A stretch of 64,000 nt of DNA, taken from contig DZDJ01000008.1 in NCBI GenBank assembly GCA_022736715.1, positions 37,529 through 101,528 of the forward strand, read 5' to 3'. The translations under genes were made by a program, and so were the position numbers. The stretch is from Edaphobacter aggregans (lineage in GTDB: Bacteria; Acidobacteriota; Terriglobia; Terriglobales; Acidobacteriaceae). A model generated the notes under the pieces. That model did not search any database. It was given only the letters and a program-made list of their open reading frames with translations, and was not told where the DNA came from. Positions within the stretch are counted from its first letter, which is position 1. Each line of letters opens with the position of its first letter. Shown piece after piece: positions 13,205-61,674 of the stretch.

Positions 13205-16200
13205 ATGAAAAAGATACAACGAGGAATGGTATGGCTATGTGCCGTTGTCATGCTGGTGAGCATGACGTCAGCGATAGCTCAGACGATCACCGGATCCATA
13301 CGCGGCCTGGTGACGGATTCAAGCGGAGCGGTGATCCCTGGAGCCAAGGTCATTGCGAGAAATGTCAATACGGGTGTAACTACTCACACTGTGACAAACG
13401 GTGAGGGGCTCTACAACATCCAGTTCCTGCCAATTGGCGATTACACCGTCACGGCAAGCGCACCGGGCTTCCAGACGACCAAAGTGGGTTCGTTCCGTCT
13501 GCAAATTGATCAGGTTGCGAAGATCAATGCCAAGCTGGCAGTGGGCAAGAGTGCCACCACAGTAACGGTTGCGGCTTCCACTGCTCCACTGCTGAACACG
13601 GAAAATGCCACCTTGGGAACCAGCGTTGACGCGCATACGCTGGAGAACATGCCTCTGCCTGGGCTGAACGTGAACTATGCAACGATGTTTGTTCCGGGCA
13701 CGGTGCTGCCAACCTCGGGCAATCTTGGGTCTACGCAGGCGACAGGGCGCGATGCAGGCGGCTCCGGCGGGCAGGGCTCGCAGGTGGTGCCGTCCTTCAA
13801 CGGCAACCGTCAGCAGACCAACAACTACATTCTGGATGGTATGGAGATCAATGAGACGGTGAACAACCTCATTGGCTACAACCCGTCCCCGTTCTCGCTG
13901 CAGGAAGTGCGTGTTATCACCGGCAATGCCGATGCTGAATATGGCAACGTCAATGGCGGCGAAGTTGTGATGGTCACCAAGGGTGGAACCAACAAGTTTC
14001 ACGGCAGCGCCTTTGAGTATTTCCAGAACCAGAATCTGGCGGCAAACGACTGGACGGATAACCTTACACATACCCCAAAATCCAAATTCACGAGCAACCA
14101 GTTTGGCGCCACCATTGGCGGCCCGCTGTTGCGGAACAAGCTGTTCTTCTTTGGCGATTATGAGGGCGTTCGCAGTGGCGGGCCTGCCAATCCGACAGTG
14201 GTCAGTGTTCCGACCGCAGCCGAGCGCACGGGGGACTTCTCTGCGCTGCTTGCGGTGGAAGGCACGCAACTGTATGACACCTCCAATGGCCTGGCAAATG
14301 CCACACCTTACGCCAATAACCAGATTCCTATAAACAATCCGGTGGCCAGGTTCCTGTTTGCGCACCCGGAGGCACTGCCGCTGCCGAACCACGCCCCCAA
14401 TCCGGGTAGCGTGTCCTATCTGAACTATCAGGGATTCAGTCAAACGAAGAACGGCAATGATCAGGGCGACATCCGGGTTGACTACAACATCAGCCAGAAG
14501 GACTCGCTCATGGCCAAATACACCGTCGGTGATGCCTACACAGACCACACGAAGGTGGCGTTGCCGGTGCAGTTTCCTACAACCGATGATTATCCTTTCC
14601 ACCTCGCGGTTTTGAACTGGGTACACACCTTTTCCCCCTCCGTGGTGAATGAGGCGCGTGCCGGTTTCTCGCGTATTGTCTGGAACCAGGGATCGCCTTC
14701 TGATCCTTCCGGATTGTTTGGCAAGAATGGGGACCAGGTGGTCGGAATTCCACTGGCAGACCAGTCCATCGTCGGTTTCAGCTATATGAATTTCCAGAAT
14801 GCCAGTTCTTCGGGATTCACCAGCTTTGGTGTGAGCCCGAATACGGTCAACTTTCTGGCGGACAACAACTTCAGCTATGGAGACAATCTGACCTGGCAGC
14901 ATGGCAACCATGTGACCAAGTTTGGTGTCCAGTTTGTGCGTTATCAGCAGAACTTCTTCACCACCAGCAACCTGGGCGGTCTGCTGGGCCAATTCAACTA
15001 TTCGGGTGTGTATACTGCCGGGCCCAGTGGCAGTGGTGGTGGGAATCCTTTTGCGGACTTCGTGGTCGACAAGGCTGCCAGCGCACAGATTACTGGTGTC
15101 AAGGGGCCTTTTGGGCAACGTCAGTGGCGGAATGCTTTCTACGTGCAGGACGACTGGAAAATTCTTCCGAACCTGACGCTGAACATGGGTATGCGGTATG
15201 CCTATGACCAGGCCATTTACGAGGTCCACGACAAGATGTTGTCCGTTGACCTGAAGAAGGCCTATTTTGCAGCACCGGGAACCCCGTTTGATTCCATGCT
15301 GCTGTATGCGGGCAAGAATGGCGCCAGCCGGGCGCTGTATAACGCTTATCCGTGGCAGGTGATGCCACGTTTCGGCTTTGCCTGGCAGGTAAATCATCGT
15401 ACGGTGGTGCGTGGCGGCTATGGCATTACGGAGGCCATGGAAGGCACAGGATCCGGTCTGCGTATGACGCAGAATCCGCCCTTCCAGCCTTCGTTCTCCT
15501 TTTTTGCCGCGCCTCCGGGCGCCACGACGGGGGGGACGTCTCTACAGACCGGGAATGGCTTTACGTCGGTGCAGCACTCTGGCAACAACACGAACGTCTT
15601 TTCCGGGATAATTGATGTCTGGGACCCGAACCTGCGTCCCGCAGTGGTGCAGCAGTTCAACCTGACGACGCAGTATGCCGTCAACGACAGCACTTCAGTA
15701 CAACTGGGGTATGTCGGGCAGCTTGGACAGCACCTGGTGGTTCCTCTGGGACTGAACCAGTACACTGCGCCGGTTCCGAGCACCTGCGCCAATCCTGATC
15801 CGAACGATGGTTGTACTTACAAGGTGGCTCCTTACTATGCACTGGTGGGCGCCTATGGATATGTGATTGAAACGGTCTCGCAGGGCATACAAAACTACAA
15901 TGCGCTCCAGGCCGTGTTGCAGCACCAGGACCGGAATGGTCTGCAGTTCCAGTTGAACTACACCTGGTCCAAGGCAATGACCAATAACGTCGGCTTCTTC
16001 GGCGTCAATGGCAGTGCCGGCACGGACTCCTTCTGGCAGAACACCTATGATCCCCAGGCAGATTACGGTCCGTCGAGCTATGACGTGCGCCATAACCTGA
16101 CGGGAACCATGGTCTACGAGCTTCCGTTCGGACGTGGCAAGAAGTTTGGCGGCAACTGGAACCGTGCGGTGAATTCGGTTGCTGGCGGCTGGTCCCTTTC

Positions 16201-16696
16201 CGGCGCGGCCATGCTCAGCAGCGGCCTGCCGATTTCCATTCAGACCTTCAATGTGAACAACGAGCTGAACCCTCCGGGAAATCTGGATGGAACAGAGCGT
16301 GCCAACCACTACTTCCCGTTGAAGATCAAAAATCAGTCGGTAAACCACTGGTATGGGACTGATCCTTCGGCAACTCCGTGCAAAAGTGCTGGTCAGACGG
16401 TCAATTCCCTGGGAGCCAACTGCGCCTATGGGCAGCCATCGTCGACTGAATTTGGCAGCGCAAGCCCCAGCACAGAACGCGCACCGGGCTATCGCCAGAT
16501 TGATCTTTCTCTCTTCAAGGCGTTCCAGACGTACAAGGAGCAGCAGGTCAAGTTCCGTGTGGACGGCTTCAACGTCTTCAACATTGCCAGCTACGATCCT
16601 CCGGGACAGTACATCGACAGTGCGCGTTTCGGAAGAATCTTTGGTACGCTGTCACCGCCAAGGCAACTGCAGCTTTCTGTCATCTACCAGTTCTGA
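13205..16696 (+). CDS. TonB-dependent receptor, Oar-like, with N-terminal carboxypeptidase regulatory-like domain
   Basis: Signal MKKIQRGMVWLCAVVMLVSMTSAIAQ; GSIRGLVTDSSGAVIPGAKVIARNVNTGV; plug and barrel; C-terminus FRVDGFNVFNIASYDPPGQY...LQLSVIYQF ending in aromatic F. Confidence 0.95.
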   Translation: MKKIQRGMVWLCAVVMLVSMTSAIAQTITGSIRGLVTDSSGAVIPGAKVIARNVNTGVTTHTVTNGEGLYNIQFLPIGDYTVTASAPGFQTTKVGSFRLQIDQVAKINAKLAVGKSATTVTVAASTAPLLNTENATLGTSVDAHTLENMPLPGLNVNYATMFVPGTVLPTSGNLGSTQATGRDAGGSGGQGSQVVPSFNGNRQQTNNYILDGMEINETVNNLIGYNPSPFSLQEVRVITGNADAEYGNVNGGEVVMVTKGGTNKFHGSAFEYFQNQNLAANDWTDNLTHTPKSKFTSNQFGATIGGPLLRNKLFFFGDYEGVRSGGPANPTVVSVPTAAERTGDFSALLAVEGTQLYDTSNGLANATPYANNQIPINNPVARFLFAHPEALPLPNHAPNPGSVSYLNYQGFSQTKNGNDQGDIRVDYNISQKDSLMAKYTVGDAYTDHTKVALPVQFPTTDDYPFHLAVLNWVHTFSPSVVNEARAGFSRIVWNQGSPSDPSGLFGKNGDQVVGIPLADQSIVGFSYMNFQNASSSGFTSFGVSPNTVNFLADNNFSYGDNLTWQHGNHVTKFGVQFVRYQQNFFTTSNLGGLLGQFNYSGVYTAGPSGSGGGNPFADFVVDKAASAQITGVKGPFGQRQWRNAFYVQDDWKILPNLTLNMGMRYAYDQAIYEVHDKMLSVDLKKAYFAAPGTPFDSMLLYAGKNGASRALYNAYPWQVMPRFGFAWQVNHRTVVRGGYGITEAMEGTGSGLRMTQNPPFQPSFSFFAAPPGATTGGTSLQTGNGFTSVQHSGNNTNVFSGIIDVWDPNLRPAVVQQFNLTTQYAVNDSTSVQLGYVGQLGQHLVVPLGLNQYTAPVPSTCANPDPNDGCTYKVAPYYALVGAYGYVIETVSQGIQNYNALQAVLQHQDRNGLQFQLNYTWSKAMTNNVGFFGVNGSAGTDSFWQNTYDPQADYGPSSYDVRHNLTGTMVYELPFGRGKKFGGNWNRAVNSVAGGWSLSGAAMLSSGLPISIQTFNVNNELNPPGNLDGTERANHYFPLKIKNQSVNHWYGTDPSATPCKSAGQTVNSLGANCAYGQPSSTEFGSASPSTERAPGYRQIDLSLFKAFQTYKEQQVKFRVDGFNVFNIASYDPPGQYIDSARFGRIFGTLSPPRQLQLSVIYQF

Positions 16697-16715
16697 AGCG
16701 GTTCAATAGAAACAC

Positions 16716-16751
16716 AAAACGTGGAGAGCGTAACCGCGCTCTCCACGTTTT
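16716..16751 (+). terminator. Rho-independent terminator of TonB receptor gene
   Basis: AAAACGTGGAGAGCG-TAACCG-CGCTCTCCACGTTTT, perfect 15-bp stem followed by TGCTTTT, just after the 16696 stop. Confidence 0.88.
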
Positions 16752-16796
16752 GCTTTTCCAGTTCCAGGGAATGTGAGCAGCCACGACACGGCCGTA

Positions 16797-16917
16797 GCAA
16801 AAGCAGAGAGAGTCTGCAAGGCGGAGCCGCAGGCCTTGAGACGACACGGCCAGCAAGGAGCGGCGGCCGGGCACTCCCTGCAAAAGGCGGACAGCTCTCA
16901 GTAATCCTGCTTTTGCC
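16797..16917 (-). repeat. Stop-codon-anchored dispersed repeat, copy A (3' of kdsB)
   Basis: Minus strand reads TAG|GGCAAAAGCAGGATTACTGAGAG...GGGAGTGCCCGGCCGCCGCTCC...CTCTGCTTTTGC; same words recur at 55256-55381 and 59372-59463; imperfect terminal inverted repeats GCAAAAGCAG. Confidence 0.85.
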
Positions 16918-17670
16918 CTATGAGCGCTGCTTGCGCAGCAGAGTTTCTACTTTTTTCAGATCTTCTTCCGTGTCCACGCCAATGGTGTCGTGCTCGGTTG
17001 GCTCCACGTAGACGGCGATGCCGTTTTCCAGAAAACGCAGCTGCTCCAGCCGCTCAATGGATTCCAGAGGACTGTGCGGAAGCTGAGGGAAGCGCAGCAG
17101 CGCGGCCTTGCGGTAGGCATACAGACCGATATGCTTCCACCAGGTGATGCCGGGCTGGCCATCGCGATTGTAGGGAATGGTGGCGCGGGAAAAATAGAGC
17201 GCGCGGCCGTCGCTGGCCGTTACTACTTTCACCGCGTTGGGATTATGGATGTTTTCTGCCGTGCATGGCGTTTTGATGGTGGAGACCTCCACCTCCGGCC
17301 GCAGCATGGGGCGCAGCAGCGCGGAAAGATGCTCGGTCAGCACCAGCGGCTCATCGCCCTGCACGTTGACGTAGATGTCGGCGTCCAGCTCCTGCGCCAC
17401 GGCGTGGATGCGGTCGGTGCCGCTGGGCAGGTCCGGCGAGGTCAGGCGGAAGCTCCAGCCCTGGGCGCGGCAAAGGCTGGCCACTTCTTCAGAGTCCGTG
17501 GCGACGATGACATCGTCCAGTTGGCTGCAATTGCGCGCCGCCTCATATACCCAGGTCAGCATGGGGCGTCCTGCCAGCTCGCGCAGCACTTTGCGCGGCA
17601 GGCGGGTTGAGGCCAGCCGCGCAGGAATTACGCCGAGAATACGAGGGCTGGTGGCGGGAGGTGTCATCAA
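16918..17670 (-). CDS. kdsB: 3-deoxy-manno-octulosonate cytidylyltransferase
   Basis: ILGVIPARLASTRLPRKVLRELAGRPMLTWVYEAA...DDVIVATDSEEV...DIYVNVQGDEPLV...YFSRATIPYNRDG...KHIGLYAYRKAALLRF. Confidence 0.97.
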   Translation of the reverse strand: MMTPPATSPRILGVIPARLASTRLPRKVLRELAGRPMLTWVYEAARNCSQLDDVIVATDSEEVASLCRAQGWSFRLTSPDLPSGTDRIHAVAQELDADIYVNVQGDEPLVLTEHLSALLRPMLRPEVEVSTIKTPCTAENIHNPNAVKVVTASDGRALYFSRATIPYNRDGQPGITWWKHIGLYAYRKAALLRFPQLPHSPLESIERLEQLRFLENGIAVYVEPTEHDTIGVDTEEDLKKVETLLRKQRS

Positions 17671-37206: not shown

Positions 37207-37275
37207 AAGAGCCTCTTGAGGCGCATAATGTGCGCCTCAAGCATTGTACTCCCAGGTTTTTGTCCGCCGGCCTAT

Positions 37276-37386
37276 AGCGGTTCTCCAGTTGGTGTAGAGG
37301 GAACGTGATGCCCTGAAACGGCTTTTTTCTCAAGAAAAAGCCGTCCTGCATGTTCCTGGAAACTCCGCGAAAACTGGAGAACCGCT
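37276..37386. repeat. 111-bp nested palindromic element fused to stop codon of the OM barrel gene
   Basis: Perfect 15-bp terminal inverted repeats AGCGGTTCTCCAGTT / AACTGGAGAACCGCT, nested ACGGCTTTTT/AAAAAGCCGT hairpin (37318-37344); directly abuts the minus-strand TAG at 37387-37389. Confidence 0.85.
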
Positions 37387-38058
37387 CTAGAAGCGGAAGT
37401 AGATGCCCAGCGCCGGTTCAAACGAGATCGTTCGGGCGTTCGTTATCAGGTAGGTTGTTCCGAAGTCCGGGGCCTTGTAGTCGAGTGCGCGCACCTGGAA
37501 GCGCAGGCCGATGTGGTCGCTGAAGATGGGGTCATCCACACCAGCGCCGGCGTAGTATGTCATGCGCGCCTGCGTGGGCAGAGACTGGCCTCCCTTGTAG
37601 GTTGGTTTGAAGACGGTGGTTCCCACACCAGCGGAAACAAATGGCTTGAAGTTCATAAAGCTGGGAAGGTGGGCCACATAGCCAAAGGTCAGTTCATGCA
37701 CGTTGGTCTGGGCTGCAAAATCAGCCGGAGGTTGAAATTGTGTGAATGGAACATTCTGGTAATGTTCGGTTACACGGGTGAACTTGTAATTGCCTTCCAG
37801 TCCAAACCAGCGTGAGCGCGTGTAGCGAATGGTGAGCAGTCCGCCGCTGGCGCCGCTGGCGCTCTGGGTGATTTTGTTCCCGGTTCCGGGATTATTTCCG
37901 CTGGAGCCCTTGGTGAAGTTGGCAATACCGCTGAAGGTTGCATCCAGGTTGCTGAAGTGGCTGGCAAAGCCAGTGGACTGGCCGACGGCAAAGGGGGTCA
38001 CCAGGCAGGTAACTGCAATCACTATAAATTTCGACACACTACGAGACAGCTTTGGCAT
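37387..38058 (-). CDS. Outer-membrane beta-barrel protein (OmpA/OmpW-like barrel)
   Basis: Signal MPKLSRSVSKFIVIAVTCLVTPFAVGQ; alternating aromatic pattern, terminal ...FEPALGIYFRF. Confidence 0.8.
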   Translation of the reverse strand: MPKLSRSVSKFIVIAVTCLVTPFAVGQSTGFASHFSNLDATFSGIANFTKGSSGNNPGTGNKITQSASGASGGLLTIRYTRSRWFGLEGNYKFTRVTEHYQNVPFTQFQPPADFAAQTNVHELTFGYVAHLPSFMNFKPFVSAGVGTTVFKPTYKGGQSLPTQARMTYYAGAGVDDPIFSDHIGLRFQVRALDYKAPDFGTTYLITNARTISFEPALGIYFRF

Positions 38059-53831: not shown

Positions 53832-55255
53832 GCATGCCAATGAAACGGCCGGAGCGGCCGCATCGGCCACTGCAACAGGCGGTGGCTGCGAAGACGATTT
53901 CTCCCGCACGCAACGCTGCGCAGCAGATTCTGACGTTGCTGCATCAGGGCAAGGGCCATTGTGATGAGTTGCTGCAGGGGCCGCTGCTGGCGGGCCTGTC
54001 GCAGGAAGACCGCAACCTGTGCACCACGCTGGTGATGGGTGTGCTGCGTTGGCAGATTGCGCTGGATGCGCAGATTGTTCCGCTGTTGCAGCATCCGGAA
54101 AAGGGGCTGCCGGAGCCGGTAGCGATTGCGCTGCGGCTGGGTGTATTTCAACTGCTGCATCTGGACCGCATTCCACCCCATGCGGCGATCTCCGAAAGCG
54201 TGGAACTGTGCCGTGCGGCGCAACAGCCGCAGACCACGGGCATGGTGAATGCCATTCTGCGCAAGATTGCGCGGTTGCCCAGACCGCTGCCCGCAGCGAA
54301 GAGCCTGGCCCTGCGCTATGCGCATCCGTCGTGGCTGGTGCAGCGGTGGAGCAGGCTCTACGGCAAGGAAGCGGCGGAGGCGATTTGCGCAGCAGGCCAG
54401 ACGCAGCCTGCTGCGCTGGTGCGCTGGGTTGGCAAGGATGCGGAAAAACCGGCTCTGCTGGCAGAGCTGGAGGCAGGCAAGCTGCTGCAGACGAGCTATG
54501 TTGGCAGTTCGGCGCAACTGGCGGCGCTGGCGGCGCAGCATCCGCAGCAGTTCCAGATGATGGACGAGGGCTCGCAACTGGTGGCGGAGATGGCTGCCTG
54601 TGGCGTTCCCACGGATGGAAAAATTCTGGACAGTTGCGCTGCGCCCGGCGGCAAAACGCTGGTGCTGGCGCAACGCAATCCGGCGGCAGAGATTCTGGCC
54701 TGCGACAGCAGTTCGCGTCGTTTGCAGGCCATGCGCAAGCGGCTGCAGCCGGTGGCGTATGCAGCCAGGGTGCGCTTTCTGCAGGGAGACGCATCGCAGC
54801 CCTTGCCTGCGGCCTTTGCGCAGGAGCAGTTCGACCGCATTTTGTGCGATGTGCCCTGCAGCGGTACGGGAACGCTGGCGCGCAATCCGGAGATTCGGCA
54901 TCACCTGCAACCGGAGGACCTGGAGCGCCACGCGGCGCGGCAAAAGGAGATTCTGGGCCGCGCGATGCGGCAGCTTGCGCCGGGCGGACGGCTGGTCTAT
55001 TCCACCTGTTCTCTGGAGCCGGAGGAAAATGAGGCGGTGGTGGAGGCCTGTCTGCAGGCTGAGCAGGGCTTCCGCAAAGTGGATGTTGCAACGGCGCTGG
55101 CAACGTTGCAGCAGCAGGGCGTTCTGCAGGCAGATGCGGCGGCCACGCTGCAGGCAACGGCGGTACGCGATGGCTATCTGCGCACGCTGCCGGGTGTACA
55201 TCCCTGTGATGGATTCTTTGCGGCGATGATCGAGCGCGTGGCGCTCTACAGCTAA
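53828..55255 (+). CDS. rsmB: 16S rRNA (cytosine-5) methyltransferase RsmB (NusB domain + MTase)
   Basis: NusB-like N-terminus; ILDSCAAPGGKTLVLAQ, FDRILCDVPCSGTGTLARNPEIRHHL, LVYSTCSLEPEENEAVVEAC. 4-bp overlap with fmt (ATGA). Confidence 0.96.
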   Translation: MSMPMKRPERPHRPLQQAVAAKTISPARNAAQQILTLLHQGKGHCDELLQGPLLAGLSQEDRNLCTTLVMGVLRWQIALDAQIVPLLQHPEKGLPEPVAIALRLGVFQLLHLDRIPPHAAISESVELCRAAQQPQTTGMVNAILRKIARLPRPLPAAKSLALRYAHPSWLVQRWSRLYGKEAAEAICAAGQTQPAALVRWVGKDAEKPALLAELEAGKLLQTSYVGSSAQLAALAAQHPQQFQMMDEGSQLVAEMAACGVPTDGKILDSCAAPGGKTLVLAQRNPAAEILACDSSSRRLQAMRKRLQPVAYAARVRFLQGDASQPLPAAFAQEQFDRILCDVPCSGTGTLARNPEIRHHLQPEDLERHAARQKEILGRAMRQLAPGGRLVYSTCSLEPEENEAVVEACLQAEQGFRKVDVATALATLQQQGVLQADAAATLQATAVRDGYLRTLPGVHPCDGFFAAMIERVALYS

Positions 55256-55381
55256 GGCAAGAGCAGAGTTATTGTGGGGTATACGCCTTTTGAAGGGAGT
55301 GCCCGGCCGCCGCTCCCTGTCGGTGGCACCGACTCAAGGCCTGTGGCTTCGTCCTGCACTGTCTTTGCTTTTGCTTTGGCC
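55256..55381 (+). repeat. Stop-codon-anchored dispersed repeat, copy C (3' of rsmB)
   Basis: TAA|GGCAAGAGCAGAG...CTTTTGAAGGGAGTGCCCGGCCGCCGCTCCC...CAAGGCCTGTGGCTTCGTCCTGCACTGTCTTTGCTTTTGCTTTGGCC, sense orientation directly after the rsmB stop (55253-55255). Confidence 0.85.
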
Positions 55382-59371: not shown

Positions 59372-59463
59372 GCAAAAGCAGTGAGAGTGTAAGACGAAGC
59401 CGCAGGACCTGGGCCTGCGCTTCCTCCAAAAGACGTACACCTCTCAGTGACTCTGCTTTTGCC
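59372..59463 (-). repeat. Stop-codon-anchored dispersed repeat, copy B (short variant)
   Basis: Minus strand TAA|GGCAAAAGCAGAGTCACTGAGAGGTGTACGTCTTTTGGAGGAAGCGCAGG...CCTGCGGCTTCGTCTTACACTCTCACTGCTTTTGC; about 29 nt shorter than copy A. Confidence 0.82.
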
Positions 59464-61674
59464 TTAAGGGGCGTCTTCAACGCAGCGAAAGCCAACAGTT
59501 CCGGAGCGGTCGTAAGCTGGAGCCATCAGCAGTAGCTTGCCGTGTTCGTCGTTACGGTAAGCTTGCGGAAAATACCAAATAGAGCCTTGCGGCTGATAGT
59601 CGCTGCCTCCGCGCAGAATGCCGGCGCGGGTATGCTCGTCCCTGTATTCATCTGTCCACTGCCAGACATTTCCGACCATGTCCAGTATGCCGAACGGACT
59701 TTTTCCGGCAGGTTGTGCATCGACGTCATCGGGAGCACCGAGAACGCGACCATGATGAGGAACAGGGACTGCATTCGTGTTCCATGTGTCACCCCAGGGA
59801 TAGATCCGGCCATCCGTTCCCTGGGCGGCATACTGCCATTCCCATTCATGTGGAAGCCGCTTCCCGGCCCAGGAGGCATAGGCGCGTGCATCTTCAATGG
59901 AAACCCAGGTGACAGGCTTGTTGGCCCATCCTTCCGGATAGGTTCCATTCTTCCAGTCACGCAGGAAGTTCAAAACATCCCTGGGCCGATAGTGCGATGC
60001 TTCGAGGAACTGCTTGAACTCGGCATTGGTGACGGGATATTTGTCCATGTAAAAAGCGTGGATATGCAGGGTATGTTCGTGGAAGCGGCGTGGTGCATCT
60101 TCCCACGGATATTGCACATCTACCCCAGCATCATTTCCACCTTCAATCTCAATCCCTCTTACCTTAAAAACAAATGTGGCTGCGGGAACCCTGACCATAC
60201 CTTTGGGTGCAGTGGAGGATGGTTTGGTGAGTGCTATCGGGACGATGTGCTGCGGAAGCGGACGCCATTCATTGGAAAAGCTCGAAAGTGGCGCCGCAGT
60301 CATAGCTTTCATGCGAGCCATGAGCTGCAGCATGGCCGCGTCCGGCTCCGTATCCGTTGCGAGTATTGCCCCAAATCCATGGGCCTCAATGGGGAAAGAC
60401 AAAACATCCAGTCCATGATGCCCTGGGAGGTCCTCATGGACTGGTTTCAGTTCGATGCCGTGGTAGAGATCAAAGTAACGCATTCCGGCCTGAGAAGTTA
60501 CTGTTATCTGCCGTCCGGACACGTCGTATTCATTTCGATTCACAAGAGTCCATACTGTTTGATGGCCCAGTGGCCAGCGGCTGGCAAAGATTCCGTAGCT
60601 GTGGGTCGGGTAAAGCGGTTCCCACGCCTTGCTGACCAAAAAGGGTGCGACACCACGCTCAAGAGTTGCCATACGCCGGGTAGCTTCCCCATCGCGGGGT
60701 GTGATTCCATTCCAGATTCCCCAGATGTTCTCCCAGCTTTCCCAGCCCACTCCGTTGAAGAATGCGAACTGAAGATCATCAGTCTTGTTGCGGTTCCACC
60801 GGTCAGAGATGTTGACCATATGGCGGGTTTCAAGCCATTTGTATCGGTCAATCTGCGGAGTGAAGGAAAAGACATAGTGGCCCCACGTCATCACATCCCA
60901 GGCGAGGGCCTCATCGGCCGGGGAGCTTTCGGGCTCAAAGGCCAGCGGGTGGTTGACCTTGTCCGCAGCCAGTGAAAATGCGAGTGGCACACCATCCTGT
61001 GTGTCCCCGTTGACGCCATCTGCATTGAGTTGCTTCATGAAGTCTGCAATCGCCTGCGGCCAGGGCCTGCCTGGATCGCGGGTCCCCTGGTCCCACATCA
61101 TCATCGGGAAGAGTACCCGGACGTGCCGTCGATGGAAGTCGGCAACCATCTGCTGCACGCCGGCTATGCCTCCAGGCATGGAACGAACCATGTCCAGTTG
61201 ATTGCGGTCATCGATTCCCATATTTGGGTAGGTTGACCACACCAGAACTGCATCGATACCACCGTACCTTTTTTCCAGGTCATCAAGGTAACGGTCGACG
61301 GTGTACTTGCCGGTGGCTGGATCGTACAAATAACGGTCCTGTACCATCATTTGTGGCTGGATGAAGCTTGACTGGATCCAGCGAAGCGCTGGCATGTCAT
61401 ACCGGGAGCTGTCGTAGCCGATACGGATCCTTCGTTCCATTCGCCAGTGCGTTACATCGTTCAACCAGGCTGCATGTGTTCCTTTTGGACATGGAGCGTA
61501 GCCGCCACTCAATGCAGCGGCATACGCAGTGCTGAGCGTCAGGCAATCGGGGGAGGGGATTTGCTCACCGGCTGGTCTGTAATGCGAGTCCTGCGCCTGT
61601 CCAGTAACAGCCAGGCCAAACATGGCAAGCAACGCACTTGTGAAAAGGAATTTTGATGTGTGAACGGCATTCAT
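59464..61674 (-). CDS. Exported fusion: N-terminal glycoside-hydrolase-like barrel + C-terminal SUMF1/FGE-like domain
   Basis: N-terminal half: VLVWSTYPNMGIDDRNQLDMVRSMPGG...FHRRHVRVLFPMMMWDQGTRDPG...NADGVNGDTQDGVPLAF. C-terminal half: MVRVPAATFVFKVRG...FYMDKYPVTNAEFKQFLEASHY...PVTWVSIEDARAYASWAGKRLPHEWEWQYAAQGTDGRIYPWGDTW...FGILDMVGNVWQWTDEYRDE...GILRGGSDY...GTVGFRCVED. Confidence 0.88.
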   Translation of the reverse strand: MNAVHTSKFLFTSALLAMFGLAVTGQAQDSHYRPAGEQIPSPDCLTLSTAYAAALSGGYAPCPKGTHAAWLNDVTHWRMERRIRIGYDSSRYDMPALRWIQSSFIQPQMMVQDRYLYDPATGKYTVDRYLDDLEKRYGGIDAVLVWSTYPNMGIDDRNQLDMVRSMPGGIAGVQQMVADFHRRHVRVLFPMMMWDQGTRDPGRPWPQAIADFMKQLNADGVNGDTQDGVPLAFSLAADKVNHPLAFEPESSPADEALAWDVMTWGHYVFSFTPQIDRYKWLETRHMVNISDRWNRNKTDDLQFAFFNGVGWESWENIWGIWNGITPRDGEATRRMATLERGVAPFLVSKAWEPLYPTHSYGIFASRWPLGHQTVWTLVNRNEYDVSGRQITVTSQAGMRYFDLYHGIELKPVHEDLPGHHGLDVLSFPIEAHGFGAILATDTEPDAAMLQLMARMKAMTAAPLSSFSNEWRPLPQHIVPIALTKPSSTAPKGMVRVPAATFVFKVRGIEIEGGNDAGVDVQYPWEDAPRRFHEHTLHIHAFYMDKYPVTNAEFKQFLEASHYRPRDVLNFLRDWKNGTYPEGWANKPVTWVSIEDARAYASWAGKRLPHEWEWQYAAQGTDGRIYPWGDTWNTNAVPVPHHGRVLGAPDDVDAQPAGKSPFGILDMVGNVWQWTDEYRDEHTRAGILRGGSDYQPQGSIWYFPQAYRNDEHGKLLLMAPAYDRSGTVGFRCVEDAP

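Follow-up and report, generated by a model that had tools for sequence, protein, structure and literature searches.

What kind of repeat begins, with no gap, at the base after a gene's stop codon? The window that we analysed, a stretch of 64,000 nucleotides of contig DZDJ01000008.1 from Edaphobacter aggregans, a soil acidobacterium, holds three such repeats. Copy A (16797..16917, 121 bp, minus strand) starts at the base after the TAG of kdsB (16918..17667, minus strand; 3-deoxy-manno-octulosonate cytidylyltransferase, a name taken from an earlier note on this DNA); this TAG (16918..16920, minus strand) stands at the native stop position and its TA is the putative target site. Copy B (55256..55374, 119 bp, plus strand) opens with GGCAAGAGCAGAG at 55256, directly after the TAA (55253-55255) of rsmB (53882..55255, plus strand), and copy C (59372..59463, 92 bp, minus strand) directly follows the TAA (59464-59466) of a third gene, which lies from 59464 upwards on the minus strand and whose stop is followed by GGCAAAAGCAGAG. 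The earlier note had reported a zero gap between stop codon and repeat in all three cases, and its sequences and coordinates are correct. Copy A is bounded by a left terminal inverted repeat (TIR), GGCAAAAGCAGG, and a right one, CTCTGCTTTTGC, outside which the TA has decayed; copy C lacks the central GC-rich hairpin block. With a probability of roughly 0.8, we take the repeat to be a non-autonomous DNA transposon (MITE) of about 119 bp with TIRs RGCAAAAGCAGAG and a TA duplication, moved in trans by a transposase of the IS630/Tc1-mariner type.

The repeat belongs to a sizeable family. BLAST across the whole genome of the window (G000) found 41 real copies, and a profile built from the sequence of 34 of these, and from nothing else, found approximately 59 dispersed copies in the genome and, in the window, exactly copies A, B and C (E 1e-31 to 9e-18). 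The element is approximately 119 bp long and MITE-like, with ends TAARGCAAAAGCAGAG and with full-length copies mostly of 88-144 bp, and in the orientation used by the earlier note its consensus reads [TAA]GGCAAAAGCAGAGTTACTGTGAGGTGTACGCTTTTTGAAGGGAGTGCCCGGCCGCCGCTCCCTGTTGGTCGCG...GGCTTCGTCTTACACTCTCTCTGCTTTTGC[TTTA]. The terminal inverted repeats that the note had described are real: both ends carry the TIR, at a column identity of 90-91%, together with TA/TAR. The family thus has the features of a MITE in being short, multi-copy, dispersed and TIR-bounded. It looks old, since copies average 79% pairwise identity (86% to the nearest neighbour) and their termini are better conserved (0.90-0.91) than their interior (0.84). 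Sixty relatives gave only weak matches, and among 301 family members the TIR pattern is far more frequent than background in G000 and G114 only; judged by these searches, the window family is practically confined to G000. We found no description of it in the open-licence MITE literature on Acidobacteria.

To place both ends of every copy relative to genes we used a home-made gene caller of the order-2, coding-frame kind, with the window as its training set. A stop codon adjoins one element end in 27 of the 59 copies (25 by the strict gene caller and 2 by hand), 18 of them in sense and 9 in antisense. When left ends are tabulated against called stops, as the earlier note had proposed, 18 lie at offset 0 and no more than one at every other offset, so the enrichment at zero holds genome-wide. 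Seven right ends lie on a called stop, as do two more (L041, L071) after a one-base shift in TIR placement, and in these nine copies the element's other end sits on the stop of a gene on the opposite strand. Right-end anchoring places the gene antisense to the element, and therefore the three window copies, all in sense, do not typify the family: the orientation reported by the note is right for the three copies in the window and fails for 9 of the 27 anchored copies in the genome, for which reason we reject sense-only orientation as a property of the family.

The ends themselves suggest why stop codons arise there. The left TIR is preceded by TAA at 34 and by TAG at 6 of 53 ends (40/53), and the right TIR, read as the reverse complement, by TAA at 23, CAA at 8 and TGA at 5 of 54 ends. 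TAA stands at element ends also in copies where no gene terminates, and so it is the shared element end plus the target site. TA is retained at both ends in 15 of 48 two-ended copies; in the targets reconstructed from these 15 copies a purine follows TA in 14 and a pyrimidine precedes it in 11, such that the empty sites read Y-TA-R. All 8 left-stop cases among the reconstructed targets give TAA or TAG, and copies away from stops have a similar YTAR context.

Evidence on the target-site duplication comes mainly from a younger sister family in a genome of another genus, G061, which is the same genome as G114 (100% match). This family, TAGAGCAGAAGCAGGG, numbers of the order of 100 copies, and matches to a single end with up to 2 mismatches number 220, against 37 for a control pattern. 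We scored 40 full places and analysed 45 copies, which are 91% identical to one another and share a TIR and subterminal sequence, AGCARAAGCAGRGTTACTGTRAGGTG, with the window family. The triplet adjoining the TIR is TAG at 78 of 90 ends, and C precedes TA at 70 of 90. Nineteen copies have TA on both sides but CTAG on no more than one, and none of these carries the same 4-mer left and right; the outer flank bases vary (T/G, C/A) and the inner ones are mostly fixed. For these reasons the target duplication in G061 is the 2-bp TA within CTAG/YTAG, and the element itself ends G...C. In this TA duplication with CTAG preferred, the sister family behaves as an IS630/Tc1-mariner element does, and the window family shows the YTAR context; ISY100, an IS630/Tc1-mariner element, likewise makes a 2-bp TA duplication (PMC2170065), and the preference of IS630 for TA in CTAG was reported by Tenzen and Ohtsubo in 1991, as cited in PMC2170065.

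The same result bears on a MITE of a different kind, one that, like MITEPsy1 of Pseudomonas syringae, duplicates 4 bp (YTAR or CTAG) and is moved by a transposase of the IS5 type. The target class is indeed the one seen here, in that IS5 duplicates YTAR (PMC10359306) and MITEPsy1, at 100 bp, duplicates CTAG or YTAA (PMC3189936), but the count of 0/19 in G061 leads us to reject a 4-bp, IS5-like duplication and the family TIR is absent from the DDE_Tnp_1 transposases of G061; we regard an IS5-type origin as improbable. We note that G061 does contain another CTAG-using element, a DDE_Tnp_1 insertion sequence (L258, contig C47) with ends TGTCCGACACGTTT and CTAG on both flanks.

If the repeat is a transposon of the IS630/Tc1-mariner type, sites without it should exist in relatives, and the earlier note had suggested looking for them. 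In G061 a sister-family copy (11348-11464 of L101, contig JANXZS010000248.1, an Acidobacteriaceae MAG) begins with AGCAGAAGCAGGG directly after the TAG of the rsmB orthologue. The site reads ...CGTGAC-TAG followed by the element in G061, whereas in G019, a congener of G061 at 78-81% nucleotide identity, it reads ...CGTGAC-TAA and is empty; RsmB of G019 has the same last residue and a stop at this position, and the alignment runs through the insertion site. At a second site, L183, the end of the G019 protein is identical, with LLTDI and then TAG. This comparison covers rsmB and L183, most other sites falling outside it, partly through intergenic divergence. For the window family we compared the C-termini of orthologues, at kdsB, rsmB, L025 and L023. 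Orthologues of kdsB are present in 40 of 41 genomes, and most kdsB and rsmB orthologues are without the element. The C-terminus of KdsB lies within a few residues of those of 19 orthologues whose genes are without the element, and the L025 and L023 products end exactly at the orthologue position; RsmB of G000 exceeds most orthologues by 4 residues, so that insertion there may have altered the C-terminus slightly. Since empty sites and orthologue C-termini agree, insertions at the sites that can be checked swap the native stop for an equivalent one and truncate no gene. The alternative that the element truncates proteins from within genes is rejected where orthologues exist, as the C-termini there differ by a few residues at most. 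Taken with the TIRs, the Y-TA-R sites and the TA duplication of the sister family, these observations support the first of the two readings that the note had offered, a MITE-like element that targets TA and regenerates a stop codon. We also observe that in two genera the stop codon of rsmB is occupied by MITEs of related but different families, which suggests that the insertions share a hot spot here or that the site is ancient.

The second reading was a conserved 3'-UTR RNA element (a terminator, a stability element or a small RNA) kept by selection on the transcript. Copies do fold somewhat better than shuffles (z of about -2), 26 of the 59 lie between convergent genes, and one end of copy A carries a hairpin that, with its T tail, resembles a terminator. 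The hairpin of the element, however, follows from its TIRs, and the covariation that the note had proposed to look for is missing, with compensatory changes in 0 of 18 pairs predicted by RNAalifold. Rfam matches in the window are two tRNAs only, the family is nearly absent from the 60 relatives, and the kdsB and rsmB orthologues mostly do without it. Anchoring, moreover, involves both ends and both strands, with 18 and 9 copies in G000 and 10 and 13 in G061. We therefore consider a conserved RNA element very improbable.

Why, then, should a MITE with a TA target be found at stop codons so frequently? Stop codons make up 9% of non-coding TA sites in G000. CTAG is very rare: 464 kb of G000 contain 71, of which 23 are at stops, 28 are intergenic and 20 are in coding sequence, and stop codons thus account for 45% of non-coding CTAG. 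Given the gene contexts of the copies, the number expected to be anchored in G000 is 17.5 +/- 3.3 for a YTAR target, 23.5 for YTAG/CTAR and 37 for CTAG, against 27 observed; for G061 the CTAG expectation is 12 (from its own sample) or 23 (from a G019 sample), against 20 observed in scored contexts. These nulls rest on the home-made gene caller and on sequence samples of approximately 180-464 kb. Target preference, a terminal purine that restores the stop, and purifying selection against harmful insertions can account for the anchoring without recognition of stop codons. The note's suggestion that stop codons define the family is thus not needed, as a CTAG/YTAR preference in the given gene context predicts a similar fraction. 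The notion that stops or the 3' ends of genes are recognised directly, for example through insertion coupled to termination or to convergent transcription, draws on the presence of about half of all copies exactly on stops and on a G000 count some 3 sd above the YTAR null, but it is extremely unlikely given that the CTAG-weighted null yields 37 against 27 (G000) and 12 to 23 against 20 (G061) and that the YTAR context is similar at non-stop copies. A modest direct preference for stops could nevertheless contribute in G000, because the YTAR null taken alone is exceeded.

We propose that an IS630/Tc1-mariner-type transposase would paste the element, in trans, into the TA of a YTAR sequence, ideally CTAG. 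With CTAG being rare in these genomes, and with many of the non-coding CTAG being TAG stops, a good share of available targets would be stop codons. The purine that follows TA at either end of the element would allow both orientations to restore TAA or TAG and leave the protein unchanged, and insertions within genes or promoters would be removed by selection, so that the copies left are concentrated at stops and in the gaps between convergent genes. An effect on termination or on mRNA ends, if there is one, would then be a by-product. An autonomous partner would be expected to carry the ends TA-RGCARAAGCAGRG. We infer the IS630-type assignment from just two features: TA is duplicated, and its context is CTAG. 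No transposase with the family TIR was found among the PF13358 (IS630-type) genes of G000 and G061 or the PF01609 (IS4/IS5-type) genes of G061, both assemblies being fragmented, and the IS630 transposases of the two genomes were rejected as partners as they share no TIR with the elements. A candidate for a larger element in G061 (C275), with TIRs 1.35 kb apart, turned out to consist of separate MITE copies with a radical-SAM-like gene, and no transposase, between them, and isolated TIR-like matches elsewhere in G000 looked like chance or fragments. We read the window family and its sister as new MITE families, probably mobilised in trans by a transposase of the IS630/Tc1-mariner type.

REP sequences, or GTAG-tagged palindromes, are palindromes of 20-40 bp with a GTAG/CGTC tag and an associated RAYT, and the window family is unlike them in its size, in how its TIRs are laid out and in its TA ends. 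In the open-licence literature, the nearest precedents are RUP, MITEPsy1 and the Coxiella QMITEs. By its description, RUP of Streptococcus pneumoniae (approximately 107 bp, associated with IS630-Spn1; PMC2229807) is alike in length, TIRs, TA termini and intergenic dispersal, and the window family differs from it in that nearly half of its copies regenerate host stops. QMITE1 and QMITE2 of Coxiella burnetii are described, in the passages devoted to them, as lying at gene 3' ends in all insertions into functional genes, with overlaps of 1-3 bp in several (ubiB, kdgK, CBU_2020) (PMC5896051). In several QMITEs the overlap with coding sequence reaches as much as 50 bp; here, by contrast, almost every copy that abuts a gene has the stop rebuilt at the boundary. 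The QMITE passages give no target-site explanation (PMC5896051). MITEPsy1 is similar in its 100 bp, its TIRs and its CTAG or YTAA target, but its duplication is of 4 bp and the one here is the 2-bp TA (PMC3189936). What the window family would represent is a near-harmless mobile element: where stops coincide with a rare target word and the element's ends rebuild them, dozens of insertions at gene borders can be tolerated with no harm to a protein. It also carries a caution for annotation, in that a repeat starting exactly at stops is not necessarily an element of RNA regulation. It is conceivable, albeit rather unlikely, that a transposition system of the Acidobacteriaceae has been tuned, through CTAG/YTAR and purine ends, to stops as safe harbours, and that a stop-regenerating end is common to the window family, the TATAGCGGTT family, the G061 family and weak relatives in G002 and G033. 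Such a system might also prefer gene ends directly, or the elements might be of use as bidirectional terminators.

The weak relatives have other TIRs and a similar core. They are L051 (G002) and L052 (G033), with TAAAGCGAATCCAGAG and TAAGGCATTTTCAGGG, and L053 (G035), with CGCGTTTCCAGG; the first two end TAR-R-GC as in the window family and, judged from the reading frame, apparently follow in-frame stops. The window also holds a copy of a second MITE-like family (37272..37389, approximately 118 bp, no strand assigned) with TIR TATAGCGGTTYTCCAGTT, the TAG at one end of which is the stop of a gene at 37387-38022 on the minus strand. This family has approximately 12 copies in the 464-kb sample of G000, at least 4 of them anchored on stops, and an inner palindrome, GGCTTTTTCTTGAGGAAAAAGCC; other copies lie at 8074-8190 of L097, at about 9553 of L091 and at about 19841 of L089. 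Near the CCGCTATA end of the second family, or directly against it, are approximately ten first-family copies (L003, L005, L015, L017, L029, L031, L043, L060, L063); these are nested insertions, in which MITE ends provided the TA target. Lastly, a 17-pair hairpin with a T-rich tail, GCAAAACGTGGAGAGCGCGGTTACGCTCTCCACGTTTTGT, at 16714-16753 of the window is probably a terminator between kdsB and a convergent large ORF (13331-16696).
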